This document shows positions 6,721-60,425 of a stretch of DNA of 64,000 bases, piece after piece. The translations under genes and the position numbers were made by a program. The notes beneath the pieces are model-generated. The model was not told where the DNA came from and did not search any database. It was given only the letters and a program-made list of their open reading frames with translations. Position 1 is the stretch's first letter. Every line of letters begins with the position of its first letter. This DNA is from Acholoe squamosa (lineage: Eukaryota; Annelida; Polychaeta; Phyllodocida; Polynoidae), in the NCBI GenBank assembly GCA_949317995.1, contig OX439043.1, positions 55,507,339-55,571,338 of the forward strand, read 5' to 3'.

Positions 6721-7704
6721 ATGGACATGGACACAGGGGAGCTGGAGGAAGGGGAAGTGCTGGATTCACCACTAACAGCAGTAAAAATACCGAAAGAAGA
6801 GCCCATGGACAAGACTACGGGCCCTGTAAGGGCCAATGTAAAAACACTGATCAGCGACATATACAAGGCGCCCCTGGGGAAGACGGACACAGCAAAGCTG
6901 TATGAGAAATACCCCACAAGCCTCCACAAGACTAGAATAAACCTAGAGATCCTCGATGAGCTAGAAGCTAAGGACCCCAAATACAAGCAGCAGACTGTGA
7001 ACAGGGATGCACCCTATAACTCCTCAAGAACACTGTTGCGGGCCCCACCTCACACCTGGCCAAGGACAACAATAAGCAAGGCTTCCAATACCTACTGGAT
7101 GACAGCCCAAAGGAGGAAGTCACCACATGCAGTAAGCTACATGACACGTTTAAGGAAGTCTTTATCACAACCAAAGACAAAAGGAAGCCCACAAATCAGG
7201 GTAACTCCACCAAGGGCCCAGCCGAGGGCTGGGGTCAACAGTGAGGGCACCAACAGCAACATAACAACAGGTACCACTAAAACAACCAACAGTCATGCAG
7301 AAACAACAACCACCAAAGGAAGTACGACGACAAGAGGAAACAATACACCAATGGAGGCCAATACAACAACAGCAAACAACACAAAAACAAGCAAGACAAA
7401 CGCCAGTGCAACGGAGGCAACACCAACAAATGGCGCTAAAAACAAAAGTAAGTTCACCTACCTCCTACACACATACAAGTCCCACATTCCAGGCAGTCTA
7501 GGCAGAGAAGCAGACACATGGTTACAATACACATCAGACGGATGGGTACTGGACATGGTAAACGGCCTACCCATAAGCCTAAGCTCTCTGCCCACCCAGC
7601 TGAGACAACCTGACTCTAGGTGCTTGGACCCAGTGAAAGACAGAATCATGAGTGAACAACTTGCTATCACAAGGCATAATAGAACCTGCCTTCCCATCAC
7701 CTAG
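6721..7704 (+). CDS. Gag-like ORF of the DIRS element
   Basis: A 327-residue frame at the position of DIRS ORF1. The N-terminus is acidic (Glu-rich over residues 8-30). The C-terminal half is rich in Thr, Asn and Lys with no zinc knuckle. This composition is common for the poorly conserved first protein of DIRS elements, which is thought to be the nucleoprotein. Assignment rests on position and composition, not on a recognised domain. A further Pro-rich frame lies upstream (6331-6714) and could be part of the leader or of the same region. Confidence 0.55.
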   Translation: MDMDTGELEEGEVLDSPLTAVKIPKEEPMDKTTGPVRANVKTLISDIYKAPLGKTDTAKLYEKYPTSLHKTRINLEILDELEAKDPKYKQQTVNRDAPYNSSRTLLRAPPHTWPRTTISKASNTYWMTAQRRKSPHAVSYMTRLRKSLSQPKTKGSPQIRVTPPRAQPRAGVNSEGTNSNITTGTTKTTNSHAETTTTKGSTTTRGNNTPMEANTTTANNTKTSKTNASATEATPTNGAKNKSKFTYLLHTYKSHIPGSLGREADTWLQYTSDGWVLDMVNGLPISLSSLPTQLRQPDSRCLDPVKDRIMSEQLAITRHNRTCLPIT

Positions 7705-9310
7705 AGCCTTTGTCTCACACATGTTCCTAAAAGAAAAATCAAACAGAACATACAGGCCCATACTAAACTTGTCAAGCTTGAATGAATACACATCATACAA
7801 GCACTTCAAAATGGACCACATGTCAGTGGTTATGAATACAGTCCCAAAGGACAGCTACCTAACGAGCATAGACATAACCCAGGCTTACTTTTCACTACCA
7901 GTGAAACTTAGGAACAGGGACCTCCTACAACTGATACATCATGGTAATAGATATAGGTTAACCTGCCTCCTCAATGGTTACTCCCCAGAGCCTAGAATCT
8001 TTACTAAAATCATGAAGGCACTCATGGCACACCTGAGAACAAAGCATGGGGTAAACCTTGTCTTTTACATAGACGACACATCAATTTATGCAAAAACAAA
8101 AGTGGAAGTCAGAACAGCCACAATACACACACTCAGGGTGCTGCAAAATGCAGGCTTGACTATCAACTTTGACAAATCAGTACTAGAGCCAACACAAACC
8201 ATTGGGTACCTAGCAGTCCACAGGGCAATCAAAAACGGGGCAACACATACATATGTTCATAGACAACACCACAGCCATCAGCTGCCTCAACAAAGGGGGT
8301 CTAGCCAATCCATTCCATGCAACAAAGCCACTGAAAGTGTATTCAGATTGGCCTGGGAAATGAACATAACATTCAAAACCACATACATTCCATCAGAAGA
8401 CAATGTCAAGGCAGACAGGGCCTCAAGAGCCTTCTCCATGGCGGGAGAATGGACACTGAGCCCTGAAAGCCAACAGAAAATATTCAAAAAGTTCCCAAAA
8501 CCTGACATTGATCTATTTGCCTCACCTTCCAATGCAATATGCAAACACTTTGTATGCCTACACCACTACCCCAATGCATATGCAACCGATGCATTTTCCA
8601 TAACCTGGTCAGGCTTGTTTGTACTCATATTTCCACCCTTTGGTATCATTGGCAGGACACTAAGGAAACTGAAGGAAGACAGACCCAGAGGACTACTACT
8701 CATACCGGAGTGGAAGATACAACCCTGGTACCCCAACCTCAGGAGACTGCCCACCTTCGAGGGTCAACACATCAACGCTACAGTGGCCACGGGATCAGAA
8801 GAAAATCTTCCCCATGGCCAACAGGATGAGGCTCCTATGCCTGTCCTTATGATTGACAAGCACCCCTTGGAAATCATCTGGTGCAATCACATAGGAATAT
8901 CCATGGCATGCTTGGAGCTCCTCATGGCTTTATGGTCAAAATCTTCCATAGCCAGCTATGCAACAGCAGCAAGGAAGTGGCTAAAACACACCAGTGAAAA
9001 CAATGTTAGCGTCACCCACCCCACCATACACCAATGTGTAGACTTCCTAACAGAGATCACCAACATTGGGGTGGGTCACTCATCAGTAGCCACCACCAGG
9101 TCCCTAATATCATGCTTCATCTACATAGTAGGCAGACAATTAGGAAAACATACACTGACCAAAAAACTAGTAAAAGGGGCAAAAGCCCTAAACCACCCAC
9201 AGGAACCTTATGAATACATATGGGACCCAGCACCAGTAATACATAAACTGGCACAGTGGGGCGACATAGAGGAGCTAGATACAGAGCACCTATGCCCTGC
9301 TAAGAACTGA
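7652..9310 (+). CDS. RT / RNase H / recombinase-start ORF of the DIRS element
   Basis: A 552-residue frame overlapping the preceding one, an arrangement usual in DIRS. The reverse transcriptase has the SIDITQAYF block and a YIDD active-site box (about residues 144-147). The RNase H tail and DIRS-specific extension follow, with TYIPSEDNVKADRASRAF and DLFASPSNA (about 245-300) and the IPEWKIQPWYPNLRRL segment. The C-terminal ~140 residues look like the helical N-terminal domain of the element's tyrosine recombinase; its catalytic half lies downstream. This is a fossil copy. Confidence 0.8.
   Translation: MNNLLSQGIIEPAFPSPRAFVSHMFLKEKSNRTYRPILNLSSLNEYTSYKHFKMDHMSVVMNTVPKDSYLTSIDITQAYFSLPVKLRNRDLLQLIHHGNRYRLTCLLNGYSPEPRIFTKIMKALMAHLRTKHGVNLVFYIDDTSIYAKTKVEVRTATIHTLRVLQNAGLTINFDKSVLEPTQTIGYLAVHRAIKNGATHTYVHRQHHSHQLPQQRGSSQSIPCNKATESVFRLAWEMNITFKTTYIPSEDNVKADRASRAFSMAGEWTLSPESQQKIFKKFPKPDIDLFASPSNAICKHFVCLHHYPNAYATDAFSITWSGLFVLIFPPFGIIGRTLRKLKEDRPRGLLLIPEWKIQPWYPNLRRLPTFEGQHINATVATGSEENLPHGQQDEAPMPVLMIDKHPLEIIWCNHIGISMACLELLMALWSKSSIASYATAARKWLKHTSENNVSVTHPTIHQCVDFLTEITNIGVGHSSVATTRSLISCFIYIVGRQLGKHTLTKKLVKGAKALNHPQEPYEYIWDPAPVIHKLAQWGDIEELDTEHLCPAKN

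Positions 9311-17496: not shown

Positions 17497-17585
<89 letters not shown>
17405..17585. repeat. Compound (TA)n(TG)n ... (CA)n(TA)n microsatellite
   Basis: TA and (TG)13 (17437-17463), then 32 bases of unique spacer, then (CA)12-13 (17496-17521) and (TA)32 (17522-17585). The two halves are mutual reverse complements, so the locus can fold into a large hairpin. Confidence 0.93.
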
Positions 17586-17587
<2 letters not shown>

Positions 17588-17683
17588 AACTATATACACT
17601 CGTGTATATTTATATAATTAGCCGTGGATGGTTAGGGACTACTTGCAGCGCATATTGGTATCTATGAGGTCATCGATGACGTC

Positions 17684-19392
17684 ATGGTAAATAATCCTCC
17701 AGTATATAAGGGGGAGTTTCAAAGTAACCGTCAAATGGCTCAAATTTTACCATGTACAGTAGCTTCTTTCCTTCAACAAAAGGGTCTCATTGATATTAGT
17801 GGTACAGAGGCTGATTTTCTATGGCATGGTATTGTTCAAGGGTTTAAAATTGTAGATCCAGATTGTCAGACTACTTATGATTGTAGAAATTATAAATCAA
17901 TCCTTGCGGGAAAATTCTACAATGAATTTTGTGGTATATTATTGGACGAGTTAGAGGCGGGTCTAGTCTCGAAGAGGGATAGTAAACCTCGTTGTATCCA
18001 TTCTCTAGGTGGTGTAGAAAAATCGAATGGCAAATTAAGACCCATAACTGACTGTAGCATGCCCGAGAAGATATCTATTAATAACTTTATGGATACTACT
18101 AGCTCAACCTTTTCCTATAATAATATTAGCATGGTGACTGCTCAGTTGGATAGAGGCGATTATATGAGTGTAGTTGATTTAAAATCAGCTTATAGGTCTA
18201 TAAATGTATATGGCCCCCATAAAAATATGCAAGGTTTCAGGTGGAATTTTGGACAGGGTGAGGAGTACTTTGTTAGCAACAGGTTGACCTTTGGTCTTAA
18301 GTGCGCTCCATATATATTTAACAGAAATTCTGATTTCATTGTGGAGGTAGCAAAATTCTACGGTGTAAAGAAAATTGTTTGGATGACTTTATAATTATTG
18401 CAGACTCTTATGAGGAGTGTCTCAGTCAGAGAAACTTGTTGATAGAATGTATGGAGTACATGGGCTTTGAAATTTCTAAAGAAAAGGTAACCGAGCCAGC
18501 CCAAGAGTGCAAATTTCTAGGTATTTTGATTAATTCTATTGAACTAGAGTTATCTTTACCTAAGGATGAAGTGGAGAAAATGAAAGGGATTTTATCCAAC
18601 AATGTTAATAGGAAGTTCATTTCCAAGAAGAACCTTGAGAGGATTGGAGGTCTCATGTCCTTTTGCTCACAGGTAGTAAAAGGTGGTAGAACTTTTAGCA
18701 GAAGAGTCTTTGATTTGTGTGCACGAGCTAGGCCTAGAAGATATATAAAAGTTTCAGAATGTACCAGGCAAGACATGCAGTGGTGGTTGGATTTTTGTGG
18801 CACTTTTAATTGTAAAAGTTTAATCCTAAACGATGTGGTTAATACCCCTATGTACTCTGACTCCTCTATCAAGGGCTTTGGAGCATGGATGGGTAAGGAT
18901 TTTCTGTATGGAGACTGGACATCTTTTGATAAATTTGATCTTGGTGTAGACCACTTTACTGTTCCTCCAATTTTGGATAATCTAAAGAACCATCATCGAA
19001 ATATCAATGTATATGAATTGTACCCTGTTATGATGGCTTTGAAGTGCTGGATCTCTAGTTATAAAAACAAAAGAATCCATTGTATAACAGATAATATGCA
19101 AGTCCTAGCTATGATTAACACAGGCAGATCTAGGAACAAACTTTGTATAGAATGGCTAAGAGAAATTTTTTGTCTGTGTTTCATTAACAATGTAGAAATA
19201 TATGCTACTTATATTAAGTCAGAGGACAATATCCTGGCTGACCAGTTGTCGAGACTTGCATATAAAGGTATGCCTGGTAGATGTATAACCTCTCTCCATG
19301 ATAATAATATGTGTTGCTTCAATTACAGAGTGGGAGAGATTACAAAACAGAAAAAAGTTACTTTTAGCCCATGGTGTGTCAGACAATACTAA
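17684..19392 (+). mobile_element. RT and RNase H region of the Ngaro/DIRS-group element
   Basis: Signatures seen are GKLRPITDCS, YMSVVDLKSAYRSI and LTFGLKCAPYIF of the polymerase fingers and palm, then DDFIIIADS around the catalytic aspartates. A retroelement RNase H follows with MYSDSS.KGFGAW and ITDNMQVLAMIN, ending in YIKSEDNILADQLSRL. These are the usual RT-RNase H landmarks of the YR retroelements. Fossil copy. Confidence 0.75.
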
Positions 19393-20250
19393 GAGAACGA
19401 GGAAACATCAACTCAAAAGGTATAAGAAATTTTGTGATATATTTAAATTACAACCTTTTCCTTGTTCTCCGTCCCAAGGTTCAATTTATTTTGTGTATTT
19501 GTCTGAATTTATGAAGCAATCATCTGTAAAAAATTACATGTCTGCAGTGTGGTATCAACAAAAACTTAAGAGCTTTGTGGATTACAATGGTAATTTCATG
19601 GTGAAGAAAACTCTGGATGGGATCGAAAGGTGTAATGCTAATCCTTCTAAACTAGTCCATCCTTTTAACCCCCAAGAAATGTTAAGGTTAAGGTCGAATC
19701 TAGACCTATCTAACAGAGCAGATATGAAATTTTGGTTGGCTATTTTAACTTGTATTAGAGGTATACTTAGAATAGGCCATGTGGTTAGATCCCCTCACTC
19801 TCTGAGGGTAGGTGATGTTAAATTTGAATTGATTATGTTAGCTTACATGTTAGGACATCTAAGACTGACCAATTTGGTATGGATTCTTTCCATGTATTTT
19901 TGGTTAGGAACGACAGCTCCTTGCTGTGCTCTTTTAGAGGTTTACAGCGTTTGTGTAGGGGTAGAGATAAAAAAGATCTCCTATTCAAGTCTGGTAGTGA
20001 TGGCATGGATTATCAATATGTCAACTCTAGGTTGAAACTTCTAGCCTTACAGTCTAATATAGTAGGTTGTGTTTCTACCCAATCACTTAGGAACGGTGGT
20101 GCCACCTTATTAAAGGATTCTGGCCTCAGTATAGAGGATATTAAGAGAAAGGTTAATTGGAAATCCAGTGCTGTGTATCATTATATTCATAATCATAAAG
20201 ATGAATTATTACATCTTGATAGGTTGTGCCAATCTCATTTGCAATGCTGA
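19393..20250 (+). mobile_element. Tyrosine recombinase region of the Ngaro/DIRS-group element
   Basis: The N-terminal SAM-like part (TKRTRKHQLKRYKKFC, then LSEFMKQSSVKNYMSAVW) is followed by a catalytic domain. Its late part reads TQSLRNGGATLLKDSG and ends VYHYIHNHKDEL, where Arg and the nucleophile Tyr of the family are expected. It resembles recombinases that replace integrase in YR retroelements. Fossil copy. Confidence 0.7.
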
Positions 20251-20466
20251 TTGGTATGTGTTTTACATGTGTTTGGCATGTTTTGTGTGTTTTGGCATGT
20301 ATGGTGCTGATAGCCCCAAGGTCAGTAACCCACCAAACTCATGTGTTCTGTGATAGATCATTTATTACATGAATATTATATTGATACCTTTTTATTACCG
20401 GTACATCTGGTATCTATTATTATCTCATCCATATATTACCGGAATATTATTCCCTGGTAGCGAGAT

Positions 20467-20469
<3 letters not shown>

Positions 20470-20542
<73 letters not shown>
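20470..20542. repeat. (TA)n microsatellite
   Basis: About 36 uninterrupted TA units immediately 3' of the retroelement, matching the (TA)n on its 5' side. Confidence 0.97.

Positions 20543-23785: not shown

Positions 23786-23815
<30 letters not shown>
23786..23815. repeat. (TA)n tract at the left edge of the TIR element
   Basis: About 15 TA units abut the left TIR. A matching tract (25574-25618) abuts the right TIR. Confidence 0.95.
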
Positions 23816-23817
<2 letters not shown>

Positions 23818-25571
23818 GTGGGGCTCCAGAAAATGTCCATTAAGCAAATTTGTCATGTTTTCTTTAATAACTCTGTAATAAGATCATTTCAGGTGATATG
23901 AACAGCATGGTTACAAAGATCTCAATGAGTACTTATGTAATAACTAAGGAATAAATTATATTTTTCCTGTTATTTTCTGAATTTACCCATATTTTGCTTG
24001 AAAAATACCAAAAAATCCATGTCCCCTGAGAAAAAATGATTTTCATTCAATTTTTTTCTCTATTCACATTGTATTAACCCATTTTGCAATTAATACAACA
24101 TATTTTAGAGACCCTTCTGTACATCACCGTGAATTTTCAAGAAAATTTTCAAATTTTTTCATTATCTGATGAAAATCTTTAAAAATAGAGGTTTTCTCAT
24201 AAAATCATGTTTTTATTTAAAAAATGTGTTATCTATATGAATAGAATGCGTTTGAGGTAGTTTTTTGACAGTATGTAGAAGTCTGACACCCACATATTGG
24301 AGCAGATATGCAAAAATCTGAATATTTTACTGTTTTCTCTCCATAAATGAGGCCCAAAGAGGGGTAGAAAAATGACCCTTTTAAGGCTATTTTCTTTGGG
24401 GAATAATTTATTATATAAATATAAGGCATATAAAGATGAAATTCAGTTGACACTGTGTGTGGTGGGGGCCTGGAAAGGATCTTGCCATTTGATTCCGGAA
24501 ATTCCACTTCAAAGTATGATAAAAGACAGAAAATTGAAAATGTTACGTTCATCAGATTTATGTTACGTTCATCGGATTCACATGGATGATTTACCTCTAA
24601 TTTGCCTAATTCTTCAATAATAGTTAAAACAAATATCAATAGGGTACCCAAGTAGTGAACTGCACCAGCTAGTGTAAGAATTTTTTCAATGTAGATTATT
24701 GTTTTGCTGTAATAGGAATGCAATCATAAATGTTACGTTCATCAGATTTATGTTACGTTCATCGGATTTATGTTACGTTCATCAGATTTTTGGTGTTACG
24801 TTCATCAGACTGTTACGTTCATCGGATAAACTGATGATAGCATATGTATGGCATAAATCATCCATGAAGAAAATTTTAAACAACCAGTAAACCTGAGAAA
24901 ATCAACCTAATCAGCATGGGATATGAATTTTCCAGATAGATATATTCTTTAAGGAGATATTTCATGATTTTCCCCAAAAATGTTACGTTCATCGGATTCA
25001 GGCTAATGACTTATCAAAGATAAAATCCTTTATAATGCATAAGTAGATCAAAGAAATATCTTTAGGTATAGCTAATAAAAGTGAATACAATCATTTCCAA
25101 TTGTCAGTTAGTGGAACATTGTTCAATTTTATATTTTTTTTGTTGTTTACAAGAATTTTTAAATGAACTTAGAGCAAATCCATCATTTTCTCAATTTACC
25201 TGATATTTTAAGCATGACACAAGATATGTGGAAACGAAGGAAAAATTTCTATATGATATTCTGTGCATAGAAGAGATACATCTCTACCAGGTTCCAGTGA
25301 ATATATATCATGGTATATTGTTTGAAAATCATTTTTCCACAATTTTATCTCATTTAATCAAATCTGATGAACGTAACACCCCTCTTAATGCTTAAAATAT
25401 ATGCATTTTGAGCTAAAAAATAGAAAATGATGGAAAAATCCCAACTTCACAATATTTACCATTCTCATGGCTTATCACCTCCTCCACAGACATGTAAAAC
25501 TATAGAAGTCTAAGGGTAATTAAAAAGTTTGATCATTTTTTCTCAAAATTGGACATTTTCTGGAGCCCCAC

Positions 25572-25573
<2 letters not shown>
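23816..25573. mobile_element. 1.76-kb element with perfect 24-bp TIRs, set in (TA)n
   Basis: GGGTGGGGCTCCAGAAAATG plus four more bases (23816-23839) is exactly reverse-complemented at 25550-25573. The flanks on both sides are pure (TA)n, so the element either inserted into a (TA)n tract or carries TA at its tips. The interior is AT-rich with poly-A/T-rich stretches and an array of an 18-bp motif (separate entry). The longest frame is a 164-residue minus-strand one at 24229-24723, with no recognised transposase motif. I do not recognise the family. Confidence 0.8.
24541..24998 (+). repeat. Iterated motif TGTTACGTTCATCRGATT (8 direct copies)
   Basis: Direct copies start at 24541, 24561, 24731, 24751, 24771, 24794, 24811 and 24981. 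Spacing inside the clusters is 20, 20, 20, 23 and 17 bases. A ninth copy is inverted at 25361-25378. The core TGTTACGTTCATCRGA is identical in every copy, with only A or G at one position. It lies inside the (TA)n-flanked TIR element. Close spacing near two helical turns suggests protein-binding iterons, such as transposase sites; this is inference. Confidence 0.85.
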
Positions 25574-25620
<47 letters not shown>

Positions 25621-26370: not shown

Positions 26371-27165
26371 TTGAACAGACAAAAAGAGATAACCAGGAAT
26401 CTTAATAAATACAAAACTGACCCAAGGCGTTTTTGGAATGTAAAAAGTAGTTTATGGAAGGGACCTCGTACTGAGATAAAAATGTCATTAATAAATGAGC
26501 ATGGTACTGGCATCCCTGACCTTGAGATTCCTGACTTTGTAAATAAATATTATACTTGTATTGGTCCTAACCTTGCGAATCTGATACCAGTTGTCAGTAA
26601 CACCGACCATCGATGGATTACTGACCTTATACTTTCCCATGTCCCTGAATGTGACCAGTTGTTTGAATTGTTGCCTATTGATTTATTAACCTGCACTAAT
26701 ATAATTAACGGTATCAACTCTGTAAAATCATCGAGTATTCAACACATCAGAGCAAATGTGGTGAAAAACGTGTTGTTACATATCCCACATATACTACTTC
26801 CAATAATTAATGGTTCAATCACTAATAGTGTCATACCGGAGATGTTCAAAATAGCTAATGTAATTCCGTTGCCAAAGTCAGGCGATTTGCTGAATATCTC
26901 AAACTGGCGCCCAGTGAGTCAACTCAATATTGTCTCGAAACTAATTGAGAAATCAATCCACCGCCAGTTAATTAGGTATTTACTGGATAATGATTTTATA
27001 TCTAAAAGACAGTTTGGCTTTGTTCCATGTAGATCTACTAATGGTGCTATTTATATTTTGACTCAAGATCTATTTGAAGGATTTAACAGGGGGGAGTGCT
27101 CGGCTGTAGTCTTCCTAGATCTGAGAAAGGCTTTTGATACTGTCGATCCCACTCCCTCCTCCTAG
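26371..27165 (+). pseudogene. LINE reverse transcriptase, N-terminal part
   Basis: It contains SNWRPVSQLNIVSKLIEK (the RT2-like block), then QFGFVPCRSTNGAIYILTQ and AVVFLDLRKAFDTVD. The frame leaves the RT consensus right after KAFDTVD. A +1 or -1 shift near 27145-27165 moves the continuation (LLRKLRNLHLS) into another frame. The track's first residue is a TTG; the frame is actually open further upstream to about 26328. Confidence 0.85.
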
Positions 27166-27179
27166 GAAGGCTTAGGAAT

Positions 27180-28148
27180 TTGCATTTATCTGTACAGTGT
27201 GTATCCTGGTTTAATTCTTATCTTAAGGACAGAAAGCAATATGCTACTGCCAATGGGCGTGTATCTGCTGAAGAGGCTGTAAGGTGTGGCGTCCCGCAAG
27301 GGTCCGTGTTAGGTCCGTTATTATTTATAATATATATTGATAGTATAGTATCGGTTATAAAATCCTGCAAATTCTGTTTGTACACCAATGATCTTGCTAT
27401 TTATGTCAATGATCTCGACCCCAATCATGTACTAAGGAAATTACAGTCTGATCTGGATAATATCAGTAAATGGTGTAAATTGTTCAAGCTTACTATCAAT
27501 AATGAAAAAACAAAGTTGTTATGGTGTGCAAGTGATTTACTTAATGCCAGACACAATTTGAGTATAATGAGTGCTGAACTGGATGGTAAGCGCCTTGAAG
27601 TGGTTGATGAATTCAATTACCTTGGTGTTATCATTGATCGTGGTCTTAATTTTCGGAGAAACAACGAAAAAATAATATCTAGTTTCCGCCACAAGATGTA
27701 CCAATTAAGACAGTTAAGGAAATTTGTCGATAATAAGCTGTGTCTGACCTTATACAAACAAATGGTTCTACCTGTGCTGGAACATGCAAGTTTTCTACAT
27801 GAAAGCTGTCCTAAATCCAGTGTTGGCCGCTTACAACTTATGCAGAATCATTGCCTACGGTTATGTCTTCGAACCTTTAATACTCGGGATATATCTATAT
27901 ACGATCTCCATGTTAGACGTGATAAGAACTTATTATCTATGATGTATGATGTTTCTTGTGATCCAAACTGTGTCAAACTCCCTGCCAGGAACTTGCGTGG
28001 CAATGTTAAAAAACAGTTAAAGGTATCCAGATCCAGGTGTTTGACGTATGATAAGTCACCACTGTACAGGGGGTGTGTCCTTTGGGACAAATTGGATGCA
28101 AATACTCAGCAGAAAGGCAGTAAGAAAGAATTCATGAACAAAATCTGA
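27180..28148 (+). pseudogene. LINE reverse transcriptase, C-terminal part
   Basis: It carries GVPQGSVLGPLLFIIYIDS, then the catalytic box as YTND where the family has YADD. Two G-to-A-type changes remove one catalytic Asp, so this copy could not work. KLTINNEKTKLLW, FNYLGVIIDRGLNF and the thumb and C-terminal region follow, ending near KSPLYRGCVLWDKL. The frame then runs to a stop at 28148. Confidence 0.87.
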
Positions 28149-31056: not shown

Positions 31057-32263
31057 CTCTTAATAGCTGCTCAAGCTGCCCCTGAGTAGCAGAACCTACA
31101 GGTAAGTTTATTTTGGTAAAGCCTTTGTGGGTCACTCTGGTGCAGAGTGACTGGCTGACCTAGCTAGGGTATATGAGAGTAATTATACAGGACAACTCAC
31201 TGTACACATGTGTCTACAGGTAGAAGCTTGTCACTAAACAGTGACACTCAGTGTATTTGAAAATACTGCTATTTCCCCTGTTGATTTACGTAGAACAATC
31301 CTGTTATATAACCCCAACTCTTTACAGTGTCTAATCCATAAAGTATGTCACACAAGAGGGGTTGGGGGATGCCCATGGCTCCTGTACATTTCTATAGTAA
31401 AACTGTGACAAAAGGATGAGTGGGTGTCCACAAAGGCCCCATACAAAAGCGAGATATATAATTCATGGATCAGCCCTGGGGGTTTACAGCCAGATGGACG
31501 TCAGCAAACAGGGAGAAAGTTAAGCACATGGGAATTGGGATGCACAAAGATAATCAAAATTACCTTTTTGGTTTAAGATACATTTAATTAAAACATCTGT
31601 GTTTGAAATGTCTTTTAGTCTACCAGGATTTTCCTTCCTTCTATTCACAATTGGTCGAGGGTCCTAGTTAATTGTCAAAGAAATAAAAAGTACAGTCAAA
31701 GGACATAACATCAAAGAACTTTGGCTTTGTATCCATAAGTTATATACATCATGTCATATCAGAATCCTATCTTGGAGAGGGTATTTGCCACATCCATGAA
31801 AAGAATATCATGTTTTACTAAATCCCTCTGTTTTTGGAGAGAATATTTGGCACTGTGCCGACGCACTTGGTCGTCACAATGTTACGTTCTTATAACACGA
31901 GCAAATTTGATATTAAAACTGTTTGTAATCAATGTGGAGTTGAATGCCACCGACAAGCATTAGGTTTCCTCTCTGGGTATAGCTATACCCCATACAATCT
32001 TCAATGTATAGTTTTTTTTTATTCAGCAGACAGATGTAGACCTACAGCTAATTTAGGGAAACATCTGGAAAACATGTTTTTATAGGCTATCAAAATTTAT
32101 TCAGGAGGTATACACACATTCTTTTCTTAGGTGAAACTACTTCATCGGATCGCATGGAAGGGTTGATCTTGGTGTTCTTATGAGAAATGTGTATCAAAAT
32201 GTCAGGACAGGACGCTTCATTTATAAAAGTATCAGTCACCTTTAGGCATGCAGTCTTCCTTTG
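31057..32263. other. No gene seen
   Basis: Short frames only; no splice-bounded exon stands out. Part may be distal 3' flank of the minus-strand gene that ends at 32578. Confidence 0.4.
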
Positions 32264-55609: not shown

Positions 55610-58350
55610 CTAACAGGTCTCAATAAACCGCTCAGGTTTCTTCACGGCTCTCGAGGACCGGCGTGGCTCTGGAGTGGCTACTGCTGTTGCTGGTTCAACA
55701 TCCGCTTCACTCGCAGCGGTATCTGACATTTGTATGGGACTCGCAGGAGGTGGTTGAATCTGCAGGCTCCCTGGTTTCTTTGGCGTACTTGGCGCTGTGC
55801 TTGATGATACTTTCGGTGCCAAATGGTGTCTATTCCTCCAGACGACTCCTGACTCTGTCTGCACGATGTAGGATCTCGGAGCGTTGGCGGCATCACTGAT
55901 GACTCCTGGCTGGTTCCAACCTTTCTGGTCATCTCTCTTCATAACAACTTTTTCACCCACCTGTAGTGGTTGTAGAGGGCGAACACCATGTTGACTGTTA
56001 TAGTAGTCGGTGTATGAATCCTTATAAGCTTGGTCTCTTGACAGAATGGCCTCTCTGTCAGGCCACTTTGGCTCCAACATAGAAGGAATGACTGGCAATG
56101 TTGTGCGGATGTGACGACCCATCATGAGCTGAGATGGGCTACATCCAGTGGCAGCAATTGGGGTGTCTCTATAGACCATCAGACCTAACCAAGGATCACT
56201 TTGACTCAGAATTCGCTTGGCAGTCTGGACTGCACGTTCCGCCTCTCCATTAGAATTAGGCAAATATGGACTTGACGTAATATGATTAAACCGATGCTTT
56301 ACGATCAGGGACTTGAATTCCGCCAAGACGAATTGGGGACCATTGTCCGACACAACTTCTCTCGGAGAACCCCACCTGGCAAATACATCTTCCATGCGGT
56401 ATTTCACTGACTTGGCTGTGGTCTTGTATAGGCGTAAGACCTCTATCCATCTTGAGTAGTAATCGGCCATCACAAGGTAGTCTTTCCCTTTGAACTGACA
56501 GAGATCTACCCCTATCCTCTGCCAGGGACCTTGTGGCAAAGGTGTCGGCAGCAATGGCTCTTTTCGCTGAGTTGGTCTCAGCGTCTGGCAATGTTCACAA
56601 GAGCCAACGACCCTTTTGACGTCTGCCGTCAAACCAGGCCACCAGACTCCTAAACGGGCGCTCTCTAACGATTTGGTCACTCCCTGATGTCCATCATGGA
56701 TCCTTTGAAGAATCTCTGCTCTGTTGGCCGCTGGAATGACTATCCTGCTACCAAAAACCAGTAGTCCATCTACAACTGATAACATTGCTCGATGAGCATA
56801 GAGCTCTCGCAAGCCATCCGGTACATCCTTCTCATACTTAGGCCAACCCGTCAAGGTGAACACTATCGCTGCTTGTAACACTGAGTCATTCTGCATCGCC
56901 ACTCTCAGATCGTCTCTCTTCTGAGGAGTTGCAGGAAACCCAGCTACGATAGACTGAACATACATGTCAACTTCCTCAGCCGTGCTGCTTACGGCCTTCG
57001 TTGACATTGGACTCCTGGAAAGTGCATCTGACACATACATTTGCTTTCCTGGGACATACTTTGCTTGTGCCTTATACCTCATTAGTCTCATGAGGAGTCT
57101 CTGGCATCTTATCGGCACACTATCCAAGTCTTTGGTGTTGATAAGAGGAATGACCGGCTTGTGGTCTGTCTCCAGCATGAAGGACTCCAGTCCACAGAGG
57201 AACCGGTCAAACTTTTCACACGCCCACACACTCGCTAAACATTCCTTCTCGATTTGTGCATACTTCTGTTCTGCAGGGCTTAGTGTTCTTGAACAGAAGG
57301 CAACGGGTTTAGGAATACCTCCATGGTCTTGTAACAGTACTCCCCCTAGACCATATGCACTGGCGTCTGCATTCACTATGGTTGCCTTGTTGACGTCATA
57401 GTAAGCCAATATGGGAGTTGACGAGATGAGTGACTTCATCTTTGCGAAGGCTTCTTTCTGGGCTGAACCCCAGATCCACTCCACATCTCCCTTCAGCAGA
57501 TCGTTCAGAGGACGAGTGACTACATGTAGATCTGGCAAGTATGACCCCAGATAGTGGACCATACTGAGAATCTGTCGCAATTGAGTCACAGACGATGGTG
57601 GCGGCATCTTGACAATTGCTTCCACTTTCTCTGAGTCGGCTGAAATTCCGTCTTTTGTGAACCTATGTCCCAAGAACTTTAACTCTGTCTTTCTGTAAGA
57701 GCACTTCTCTTGGTTCAGCTTCAATCCTGCCCTCTTTAGGGTTGCTAGCACTGTAGCTAGTCGTTCGTCATGCTCTTTTGGAGTATTACCATAGATGAGG
57801 ACGTCGTCCATGTAGGTGAAAACACCTTCAAGCCCATCTAGAACCTCCTTCATCTTTCGCATAAAGATTTCTGGCGCCGACTTAATCCCGAAAGGTAATC
57901 GTCTAAAACAGTACCTCCCGAAGGGCATCAGGAACGTTGTCAATTCTTGGCTTTCCACAGCCAGAGGGATTTGGTAAAAATCCACTAGCGGCGTCTAGGC
58001 AGGAAAACATGGTGGCTCCTGACAGTTTTGACGTGAGGTCTTCTAAAGTCGGTAGAACAAACCTCTCACGTCTGACACTGACGTTTAACTTTTTCAGGTC
58101 GACACACAAACGCACTTTGCCTGTCTTCTTCACGGCAACTACCATGGGTGCACACCATGCTGTAGGCTTAGTGATCTCACGGATCACGCCGGAAGTGAGG
58201 AGACGATCTAACTCCTCCTTTACCTTAGGCAGAACCGGAATGGGTACTCCTCTGGCAACTGCTACTGCAATAGGCTGTGAATCTTCCTTTAAGACGATCT
58301 TGACAGGATTGGTGTTCAGACAACCAACGCCTTCCTTGACACTGTCTAGT
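55610..58350 (-). mobile_element. pol (RT, RNase H, integrase) region of the Ty3 element
   Basis: Landmarks in order on the minus strand are VIREITKPTAWCAPMVVAVK and LCVDLKKLN of the RT fingers, then LPFGIKSAPEIF and the YMDD catalytic box. RNase H follows with VNADASAYGLGGVL. Integrase has an HHCC domain (ending CEHCQ) and catalytic Asp residues in GVDLCQFKG and SDNGPQFV, with Glu in NGEAERAVQ. The C-terminal tail carries a chromatin-tethering-like basic segment ending KKPERFIETC. Fossil copy. Confidence 0.93.
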
Positions 58351-58351
58351 T

Positions 58352-58960
58352 TAGAAAATTTTTTTTTTAAAAATTTAAATCAAAGTTTATTGAGCCTCTC
58401 ACAATTTACAGAATCGTGGTAAATGAAGCACAACTGGAATTATAGTCAAACATCTATCAGTAAGTCAAACACAATCATACAATCAAGAAAAAAAAAGCTA
58501 CAAATCATATTCATACGGTTAAATAGATACCATATCAAATTGTACACCATATCAATTTTATAAAAAATACATACAATTATAGACACAACAATGAATCATG
58601 AGAAATATATGTAATAATGATAAATAATGATAGACAAAACAAGCCCAGACAAACAAGAACAAAAGTAACACAGGCTAAGGCAGAAATGTACAGGATTGTT
58701 GAAATTGCGACTCACAACATACACCAAAGCTTCTATAAAGGAGGGTTAACAATGTACAAAATTCTAGACACAAATATATTATGCTCAAACTAGTAGGATC
58801 ATGTAAGGATAAAGTAAGAAAGAAAACAGCACACTGACATTCACACATACACAAGGCATGATAATAACAATAATAATAATAATAACAATAACAATACTAA
58901 TACTGATATTGGCTGTTACTTCTAATGATAATAATAGTAATAATACCAGTGATAATACCA
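58352..58960 (-). mobile_element. Poly-A-tailed retro-insertion inside the Ty3 element
   Basis: On the minus strand the segment ends with AATAAA (58386-58391) and an A-rich tail (about 58359-58368), as left by LINE-type reverse transcription. Its other end is an ATT-rich low-complexity stretch near 58870-58960. The interior matches no protein. It may be a 3' LINE piece or a SINE; target duplications were not resolved, so the limits are approximate. Confidence 0.6.
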
Positions 58961-58979
58961 GTGATCAAGGTAAAGATCA

Positions 58980-60425
58980 TTTAGGTCATTGAACGCAATG
59001 AGTCCCATTCGTGATGCCACTCCTCTCCCGAGAAGGCATTCGACCTCATTTCCGATGACTAAGACACGGAAGTTGTAGCATATTCCTTTTACCTGCGTCT
59101 TGGCTGTAAAGTCTCCCTTACAGCTCAAAGGACCACCAGGGCTTGAAAGGTTTGACGTACTCTCGCTGAGTGGCGGTCTCGGCTTCAGCGTTAGATACTT
59201 GGAGTATGACATGACAGAGACATCGGCACCAGAGTCAATCTTAAAGTCTACGGGCTGACTACCCCCGATGGATAGAGTAACTTTCCATGCTGGGTCGCCA
59301 TTGTCACAGTCAATGGATCCGCAGAAGTAATCGTCCTGCTGGTCATCTCCATAGACTTCTTGGACCTTCTGACGACATACGGCTTGAAAATGACCTTTCA
59401 TGTTGCAATTCTTGCATGTCTTACCAATCGCTGGACATGCATCTGGTTCGGACGATCGGTGGACATAACCACAGTTACCACATTTCGGCTTTGACTTCTT
59501 AGTGTTTGACTTCTTACTGTGGTCATTCGATCGATGACCTTGGCCGTTTGACTTTTGACCTTCAGCTTTTGACGACCCTTGCGTCCTTCTTCTCCTTCCA
59601 CCATCCCTAACGGCGTTGACGGCTGCTGATGGCTCGTTCTGCATCTGGACGAGCTCGTTATGTCGGGCTTGCTGTACCGCTTTGTCCAAGGTGAGAGTGT
59701 CCTGTTCGAGCTGGAGCTTCTTCGACATTGTCTTGTCGCTCAGGCCACTGATGAACCTGTCACGAATATACTCATCCTCCTTATCTCTAAACCGACAATG
59801 CGTCGCTATCGCATGTAAGCTTCGGAGAAAACACTCGATCGACTCACCTGACTCTTGGACTCTGTGGTAAAACTTTGTACGCTCGTGAATGGTATTCTTT
59901 TTAGGTATAAAGTACTCGTCATACTTTTTCATGACTACCGTAAACTCCCGCGTATAAGACGCGTCCTCTACGCCAAACAAAATGCTGGGGGGTCTTATAG
60001 CTTTCTCTCAAGTTGGGTGTGCGTCTTATACGAGGGGTAATTTTACTATAGAACAGTACTGGATTTACAAAATTGAGCATTAAAATGTGCGTCTTATACG
60101 CGGAAATGCATGTGCTGAGTTTGGGGTGCGTCTTATACGTGCAGCGCGTCTTCTACGCGGGAGATTACGGTACATCGAAGTTGTCTTTAGGGTCCATCGG
60201 ATGTGGTACGGCAGCGGTTGGCTGTGCGATGGGGTCGAAGCCGAATGACTTAAAAATGTTCTCAGCTTGTCTACCCATGCAATAAATCAGTGATGACACT
60301 TGGACATCCCCATCCTCATTCTTTTGTTTAGTGACAGATCTGAACCTCATGTACCTCTCCTTCCATTCTGGCCACTTTGAGGGCTCCTCAAAGGTGAACG
60401 GGTCAGGGGGACTAAACTTGGCCAT
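58980..60425 (-). mobile_element. gag and protease region of the Ty3 element
   Basis: The region starts MAKFSPPDPFTFEEPSKWPE, typical of a Ty3-group Gag N-terminus. It includes a capsid-like stretch (YHRVQESGESIECFLRSLHA), a basic linker, and two zinc-binding knuckles: CGNC-type, then CKNCNMKGHFQAVC with CX2CX4HX4C spacing. An aspartic protease follows with FKIDSGADVSVMS. A MITE sits inside the capsid part (59938-60170). Confidence 0.9.
59938..60170. mobile_element. CGTATAAGACGC-family MITE inside gag, TA duplication
   Basis: CCGTAAACTCCCGCGTATAA on the left and, mirrored, TTCTACGCGGGAGATTACGG on the right, with TA at 59936-59937 and 60171-60172. It is 233 bp. It must be younger than the Ty3 insertion that it interrupts, so this family was active very recently. 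Confidence 0.92.

Follow-up and report, generated by a model that had tools for sequence, protein, structure and literature searches.

Among the transposons that are described in print as homing to TA microsatellites, those that we found in the available excerpts of the literature are plant families, two of which are MULEs with target site duplications of the 9-bp class (PMC4486113, PMC8449440). MuTAnT of Medicago, a non-autonomous MULE residing in (TA)n, has GGGG ends and 9-bp-class duplications (PMC4486113), and Ac-mMITE of pineapple is likewise a non-autonomous MULE in (TA)n with duplications of that class (PMC8449440); Micron of rice, as cited in these papers, is a further element that sits in TA microsatellites. 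In the excerpts at hand, a paper on MULEs of arthropods mentions TA microsatellites solely where it cites MuTAnT (PMC13359780). Shorter duplications are on record for other superfamilies, as far as the passages cited here go. Published Sola2 duplications are ATAT, AAAT, ATTT and AWWT (PMC3627910); Sola in general is treated in passages that also give the TA duplication for Tc1/mariner (PMC10741241), and Sola elements have been reported from bivalves (PMC10294476). ISL2EU, of the PHIS superfamily, makes a 2-bp AT duplication in the target A/AT/T (PMC4482050), and Ginger1 makes a CCGG/CCGT duplication and has TGTNR ends (PMC2836005).

The locus described here lies in a stretch of 64 kb (hereafter the window) and belongs to a young DNA element that is present in a few hundred copies. 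The family, a non-autonomous DNA transposon, falls into two subfamilies, A and B. No description of it was found in the accessible parts of the literature on ISL2EU and Sola elements, on the transposons of gastropods and on the targeting of TA microsatellites, which is no proof of absence, and in the text passages searched for the motif or TIR strings the only matches were in three human stem cell papers.

The element in the window and its iterons

The copy in the window belongs to subfamily A and is 1758 bp long (23816..25573). Its left TIR of 24 bp (GGGTGGGGCTCCAGAAAATGTCCA, 23816..23839, plus strand) and its right TIR (25550..25573, minus strand) are identical at 24/24 positions, the identity ending abruptly inside both repeats. 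The element is enclosed by (TA)n tracts of 30 bp on the left (23786..23815) and 45 bp on the right (25574..25618), which are taken as its target. The perfect 24-bp TIRs, the 1,758-bp segment and the (TA)n on both sides, as reported in an earlier note on this DNA, are thus all confirmed at 23816-25573. Since a duplication is not provable within a TA tract, a putative 4-bp target site duplication, ATAT (23812..23815 and 25574..25577), was assigned from copies outside such tracts. No coding capacity was found: the element has only short frames, and of five scanned with Pfam none gave a match above threshold, the best being a sub-threshold DUF (E 0.067).

The 16-base core TGTTACGTTCATCRGA is present in nine copies, starting at 24541, 24561, 24731, 24751, 24771, 24794, 24811 and 24981 on the plus strand and at 25363 on the minus strand, so that the eight direct and one inverted copies claimed earlier, with a core invariant but for one A/G site, proved correct. 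The A form of the 18-bp iteron is found in iterons 1 (24541..24558), 3 (24731..24748), 5 (24771..24788) and 6 (24794..24811), all on the plus strand, and in the inverted iteron 9 (25361..25378, minus strand); the G form is found in iterons 2 (24561..24578), 4 (24751..24768), 7 (24811..24828) and 8 (24981..24998), again on the plus strand. As read from the sequence, the full 18-mer is exact in seven of the nine, while those at 24794 and 24811 deviate past the core, the former (with exact core) at base 17 and the latter at its last base. The direct iterons are spaced, start to start, by 20, 170, 20, 20, 23, 17 and 170 bp, and the array occupies positions 726 to 1563 of the 1758 of the element. 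Elsewhere in the 64-kb window no further 16-base core was detected, only one extra 10-base part at 31880. The variable A/G site (CRG) represents CpG or CpA, and its variation is therefore as expected from deamination.

Copies, subfamilies and the search for a transposase

The genome of the element (1.48 Gb, 63 contigs) was searched with the 24-bp TIR extended by a single flanking T, allowing at most one mismatch. This pattern matched at 255 places on the forward and 257 on the reverse strand (512 in total), and the exact 18-mer motif at 852 + 741 = 1,593 places; the same two patterns reversed, used as a control, gave 0 matches in the genome. The first 100 TIR places listed of the 512 comprised 41 pairs and 18 single ends, the pair length being 1740-1770 bp in 30 of the 41. 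Four of these 41 pairs were shorter than 1,700 bp and none of the short lengths was seen twice, as if internally deleted copies failed to spread, a faint hint at most. The motif lay inside elements at 95 of the 100 places listed of its 1,593. The earlier note had named many copies with common ends and (TA)n flanks as support, and a motif abundant outside the element as refutation. The support is there, since besides the 41 pairs 63 of 71 fetched ends adjoin 8 bp or more of uninterrupted TA, as do both ends in 28 of 32 pairs; and among the 100 motif places listed the motif is not abundant outside the element.

Twenty-two full-length A copies, including that in the window, differ pairwise by 1.1% and on average by 0.57% from their majority sequence, a low divergence that suggests a recent burst of A. 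These copies were found via their TIRs; hence the lack of TIR mismatches among them reflects ascertainment. Subfamily B (L040 to L045, L048, L054 and others) has about 85% identity to A and an additional length of about 340 bp; wherever its ends were read, they proved to be those of A. The site of the stretch that is missing from A maps to 24788..24793 by A/B alignment, and in L048 and L044 this extra stretch holds one more iteron-like copy; iteron number and spacing are not the same in the two subfamilies, and copies with one or four iterons exist (L050 and L049). The B-specific stretch gave 106 candidate places genome-wide, of which 40 were scored and were 87-100% identical. Predicted ends of B copies were examined in 16 windows; ten contained a TIR (eight exact over 20 bases, one with one mismatch and one with three) and six did not, L111 among the latter having a cut TIR. 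Among four B copies found via the B stretch, exact TIRs numbered one in L098, two in L100, one in L101 and none in L099. Two distant pairs, L040/L041 and L042/L043, resemble interrupted B copies. A nested stretch in L045 that is missing from L048 holds CCACCAGGGGGCAG, which resembles the CTCF core site.

Neither a transposase nor an autonomous partner emerged from the 100 of 512 TIR places listed. A longer relative with a transposase, which the earlier note had named as support, did not turn up among them: the single 4.8-kb pair (L039 on C4, 4,845 bp), considered as an autonomous partner, was rejected because it is an A copy into which an RT-bearing retroelement has been inserted. That retroelement (L039:1787-4868) has an RT recognized by Pfam, a tyrosine-recombinase-like frame identified by eye, and repeated end segments. 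Ten of the 18 single ends among the 100 places listed were probed about 500 bp inside; eight of them were A or B, and L086 and L091 were not. A search for the TIR core with an altered internal base gave four matches genome-wide, all A/B derivatives, and other GGGTGGGG starts within TA tracts gave four matches vs. two in the control; one GGGTGGGG match lies about 90 bp from where a B copy is predicted to have its left end. A viral origin of the motif was also considered and dropped: in IMG/VR there were five single exact motif matches, judged chance level for 18 bases, and none for the TIR core.

Target sites and superfamily placement

Target site duplications can be read where the ends lie outside TA tracts. 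Genome-wide, 12 exact TIR ends have C or G at the fifth base outward, in every case C. The partner end was read for six of these, and TAAT, TAAA, ATAA, ATAT and ATAT are perfectly repeated on both sides at five sites; at the sixth (L131) the TIR is damaged and a duplication is not evident, and for the other six ends there was no partner TIR within the estimated windows. AAAT/AAAT is duplicated at L071. In L045 both ends are present and there is no duplication; its left flank (L045:440-525) consists of (TG)n and then of another, partial TIR that abuts the full one. One end of L056 carries an additional G. At the few sites where it can be read, the duplication is 4 bp, as a fifth base fits at none of the TAAT, TAAA, ATAA and AAAT sites, and the TA flanks therefore look like the target and not a part of the element. 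At the six sites with a fitting duplication and at L048, ACA follows beyond the duplication; alternating TA/CA DNA may perhaps be a favoured target.

Could segments between TA tracts have spread by recombination or segmental duplication, with no transposition involved? TA tracts do enclose most fetched copies; however, this reading is scarcely credible, being contradicted by the exact ends and by the 4-bp duplications at non-TA sites, and the flanks of the fetched copies match one another little beyond TA. A separate suggestion, that the window copy and L054 were inserted beside one repeat, was dropped, only 32 bp at 87.5% identity being common to them beyond the TA tract.

Outside TA tracts the 4-bp duplications argue against Tc1/mariner (TA), ISL2EU (AT) and MULE (9 bp). 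Tc1/mariner was rejected, as the TAAA/TAAA and ATAA/ATAA sites do not agree with a TA duplication. The duplication of piggyBac and Kolobok is TTAA; four other tetranucleotides were found instead, and these superfamilies were rejected as well, as was Ginger1, the duplication being AT-rich here and the ends GGG. That the element is a MULE like the plant MuTAnT or Ac-mMITE is very improbable. These share the habit of non-autonomous elements ending in long (TA)n, and the GGGG ends of MuTAnT are similar, but outside TA tracts their duplications are of 9 or 9/10 bp, whereas 4 bp is found here and the fifth base fails; none of the few sites that could be read has a duplication of 8-10 bp.

If the element were ISL2EU-like with an AT duplication, and not Sola, this would account for the GG start and the AT at most ends. 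Such an element would also fit a one-base phase slip, ATT, located exactly 2 bp off the element at 5 of 68 ends vs. 2 of 2415 positions farther out, if compared with the target A/AT/T. Nevertheless, 2-bp AT is contradicted by the ATAA/ATAA, TAAA/TAAA and AAAT/AAAT sites, and because of these 4-bp duplications the ISL2EU reading was given up as improbable. The ATT slip was also seen at 2 of 10 later B ends; its loci are L039, L044, L046, L063, L066, L102 and L106, and it is one-ended in five copies that were read at both ends. A plain 4-bp duplication does not explain it.

Judged by the length and base composition of its duplications, the family comes closest, among the superfamilies that we found, to Sola (Sola2-like). 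This affinity is unproven and the family is not assigned to Sola here, no transposase having been seen in the copies read. A recently active family that has the same TA habit with a 4-bp duplication, in an apparently animal genome, would point to more than one origin of the habit, and would explain the presence of some TA tracts in this genome. Another family besides this transposon may favour or carry TA tracts. A retroelement in the same window (17522-20541), with an RT recognized by Pfam and with RNase H and tyrosine-recombinase-like frames identified by eye (17684-20250), is flanked by (AT)32 and (AT)36, and its end is matched by the right flank of the B copy L041, adjoining the TA tract of that copy. 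Other neighbours in the window, recognized by eye from translations, are frames of a YR-type retroelement (6721-9310), non-LTR-like RT frames (26371-28148) and Gypsy-like pol/gag frames (55610-59980).

Conservation and putative role of the iterons

The claim of a conserved motif in diverging surroundings holds between A and B in seven of the nine B copies compared. The window copy differs from L048 at 5/144 iteron positions and at 240/1561 positions elsewhere (p=2e-5), from L044 at 9/144 and 237/1562 (p=0.003), and from L045 at 12/144 and 312/1530 (p=2e-4). At non-CpG sites the corresponding values are 1/116 vs. 230/1543 for L048 (p=5e-7), 1/116 vs. about 15% for L044 (p=8e-7), and 6/116 vs. 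about 20% for L045 (p=2e-5). L100, L101, L042 and L054 concur, their iterons being more conserved with p = 0.01, 7e-4, 2e-4 and 1e-4, respectively; L042 was located partly by its motif places and is thus biased toward iteron conservation, while L100 and L101, as well as L098 and L099, were found via the B-specific stretch and not via the TIR or the nine compared sites. In the old, partly alignable copies L098 (12/51 vs. 66/390) and L099 (9/70 vs. 129/790) there was no significant iteron conservation. Among young A copies the iterons are not better conserved overall (21/3158 vs. 198/34407); non-CpG sites alone, with 6/2587 differences in iterons vs. 186/34231 outside, hint at it. These comparisons support the iterons as a selected cis-acting putative binding site, and the 18-letter motif is probably needed for jumping.

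A neutral minisatellite-like array homogenized by slippage and gene conversion, conservation being a by-product, is rather unlikely. Several copies at 20-bp spacing, an iteron number and spacing that vary between A and B, and the lack of an overall excess of conservation among young A copies are consistent with such an array. However, the inverted iteron (25361-25378), nearly 400 bp away from the others, is unchanged in L048 and L045 and differs at a single position in each of L044 and L100, against 15-20% in its neighbours, and of the 17 CpGs in the element 13 are retained in iterons. Outside the iterons four CpGs are observed vs. 35.7 expected (o/e 0.11, compared with 0.62 in neighbouring DNA). 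As CpGs are kept in the motif and lost from the body, the motif looks like a constrained binding site.

This CpG pattern would also be expected of a regulatory site. The iterons could have been a host or transposon promoter or enhancer of a lost autonomous element, and not a part of the transposition machinery, a possible but doubtful explanation; a bZIP-like site containing ACGT would presumably be an example of such a regulatory element. The central position of the iterons, away from the TIRs, is in its favour. Yet none of the five A frames scanned matched a family above threshold; the element would therefore seem not to need a promoter, and the sites are nevertheless conserved between A and B.

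We consider it reasonably probable that the family is a non-autonomous cut-and-paste transposon with a transposase acting in trans on the TIRs, a 4-bp stagger, a choice of (TA)n and an iteron binding site under selection; cut-and-paste movement, the trans-acting enzyme, iteron binding and poor spread without iterons are the parts that we infer. A transposase (DDE/D) encoded elsewhere would recognize the 24-bp TIRs and excise the element, which would be joined to a staggered cut, giving the AT-rich 4-bp duplications, with long (TA)n tracts being chosen as the target in most cases. The 18-bp iteron array would be a putative cis-acting site to which the transposase or a helper protein binds, and selection would keep it if copies losing iterons spread poorly. 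The conserved iterons could then be used as DNA bait of known sequence for the missing transposase or helper. A bolder version, which we regard as distinctly unlikely, assumes a distinct animal cut-and-paste lineage with 4-bp duplications, which would find its target by the flexible structure of alternating TA/CA DNA more than by sequence and would depend on the iteron array in its middle, with its CpGs, as an enhancer of the transpososome. If this were true, host methylation of the array, which holds most of the CpGs, could switch mobility.

Compared with known systems, the family resembles Sola2 in its AT-rich 4-bp duplications and in the shortness of its TIRs; it differs in that no copy read here contains a Sola transposase, and internal iterons and strong (TA)n targeting do not appear in the available excerpts of the published descriptions of Sola2. 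MuTAnT and Ac-mMITE are likewise TIR elements with long variable TA on both sides, but they are plant elements with longer duplications, and no iteron array is mentioned in the excerpts at hand. With ISL2EU the family shares GG at the ends and AT adjoining most ends, in contrast to which its duplication is 4 bp and not 2-bp AT, and no DDE or YqaJ frame was seen in the copies read. It is MITE-like in being multicopy, with common TIRs, a target duplication and no transposase found; the window element, at 1.76 kb, is long for that class. Finally, Sleeping Beauty with its IR/DR, En/Spm and P have several internal or subterminal protein-binding repeats. The family is similar to these in having a short motif in several copies besides the outer TIR, but here the array, with its putative binding function, is central and unlike the TIR in sequence.
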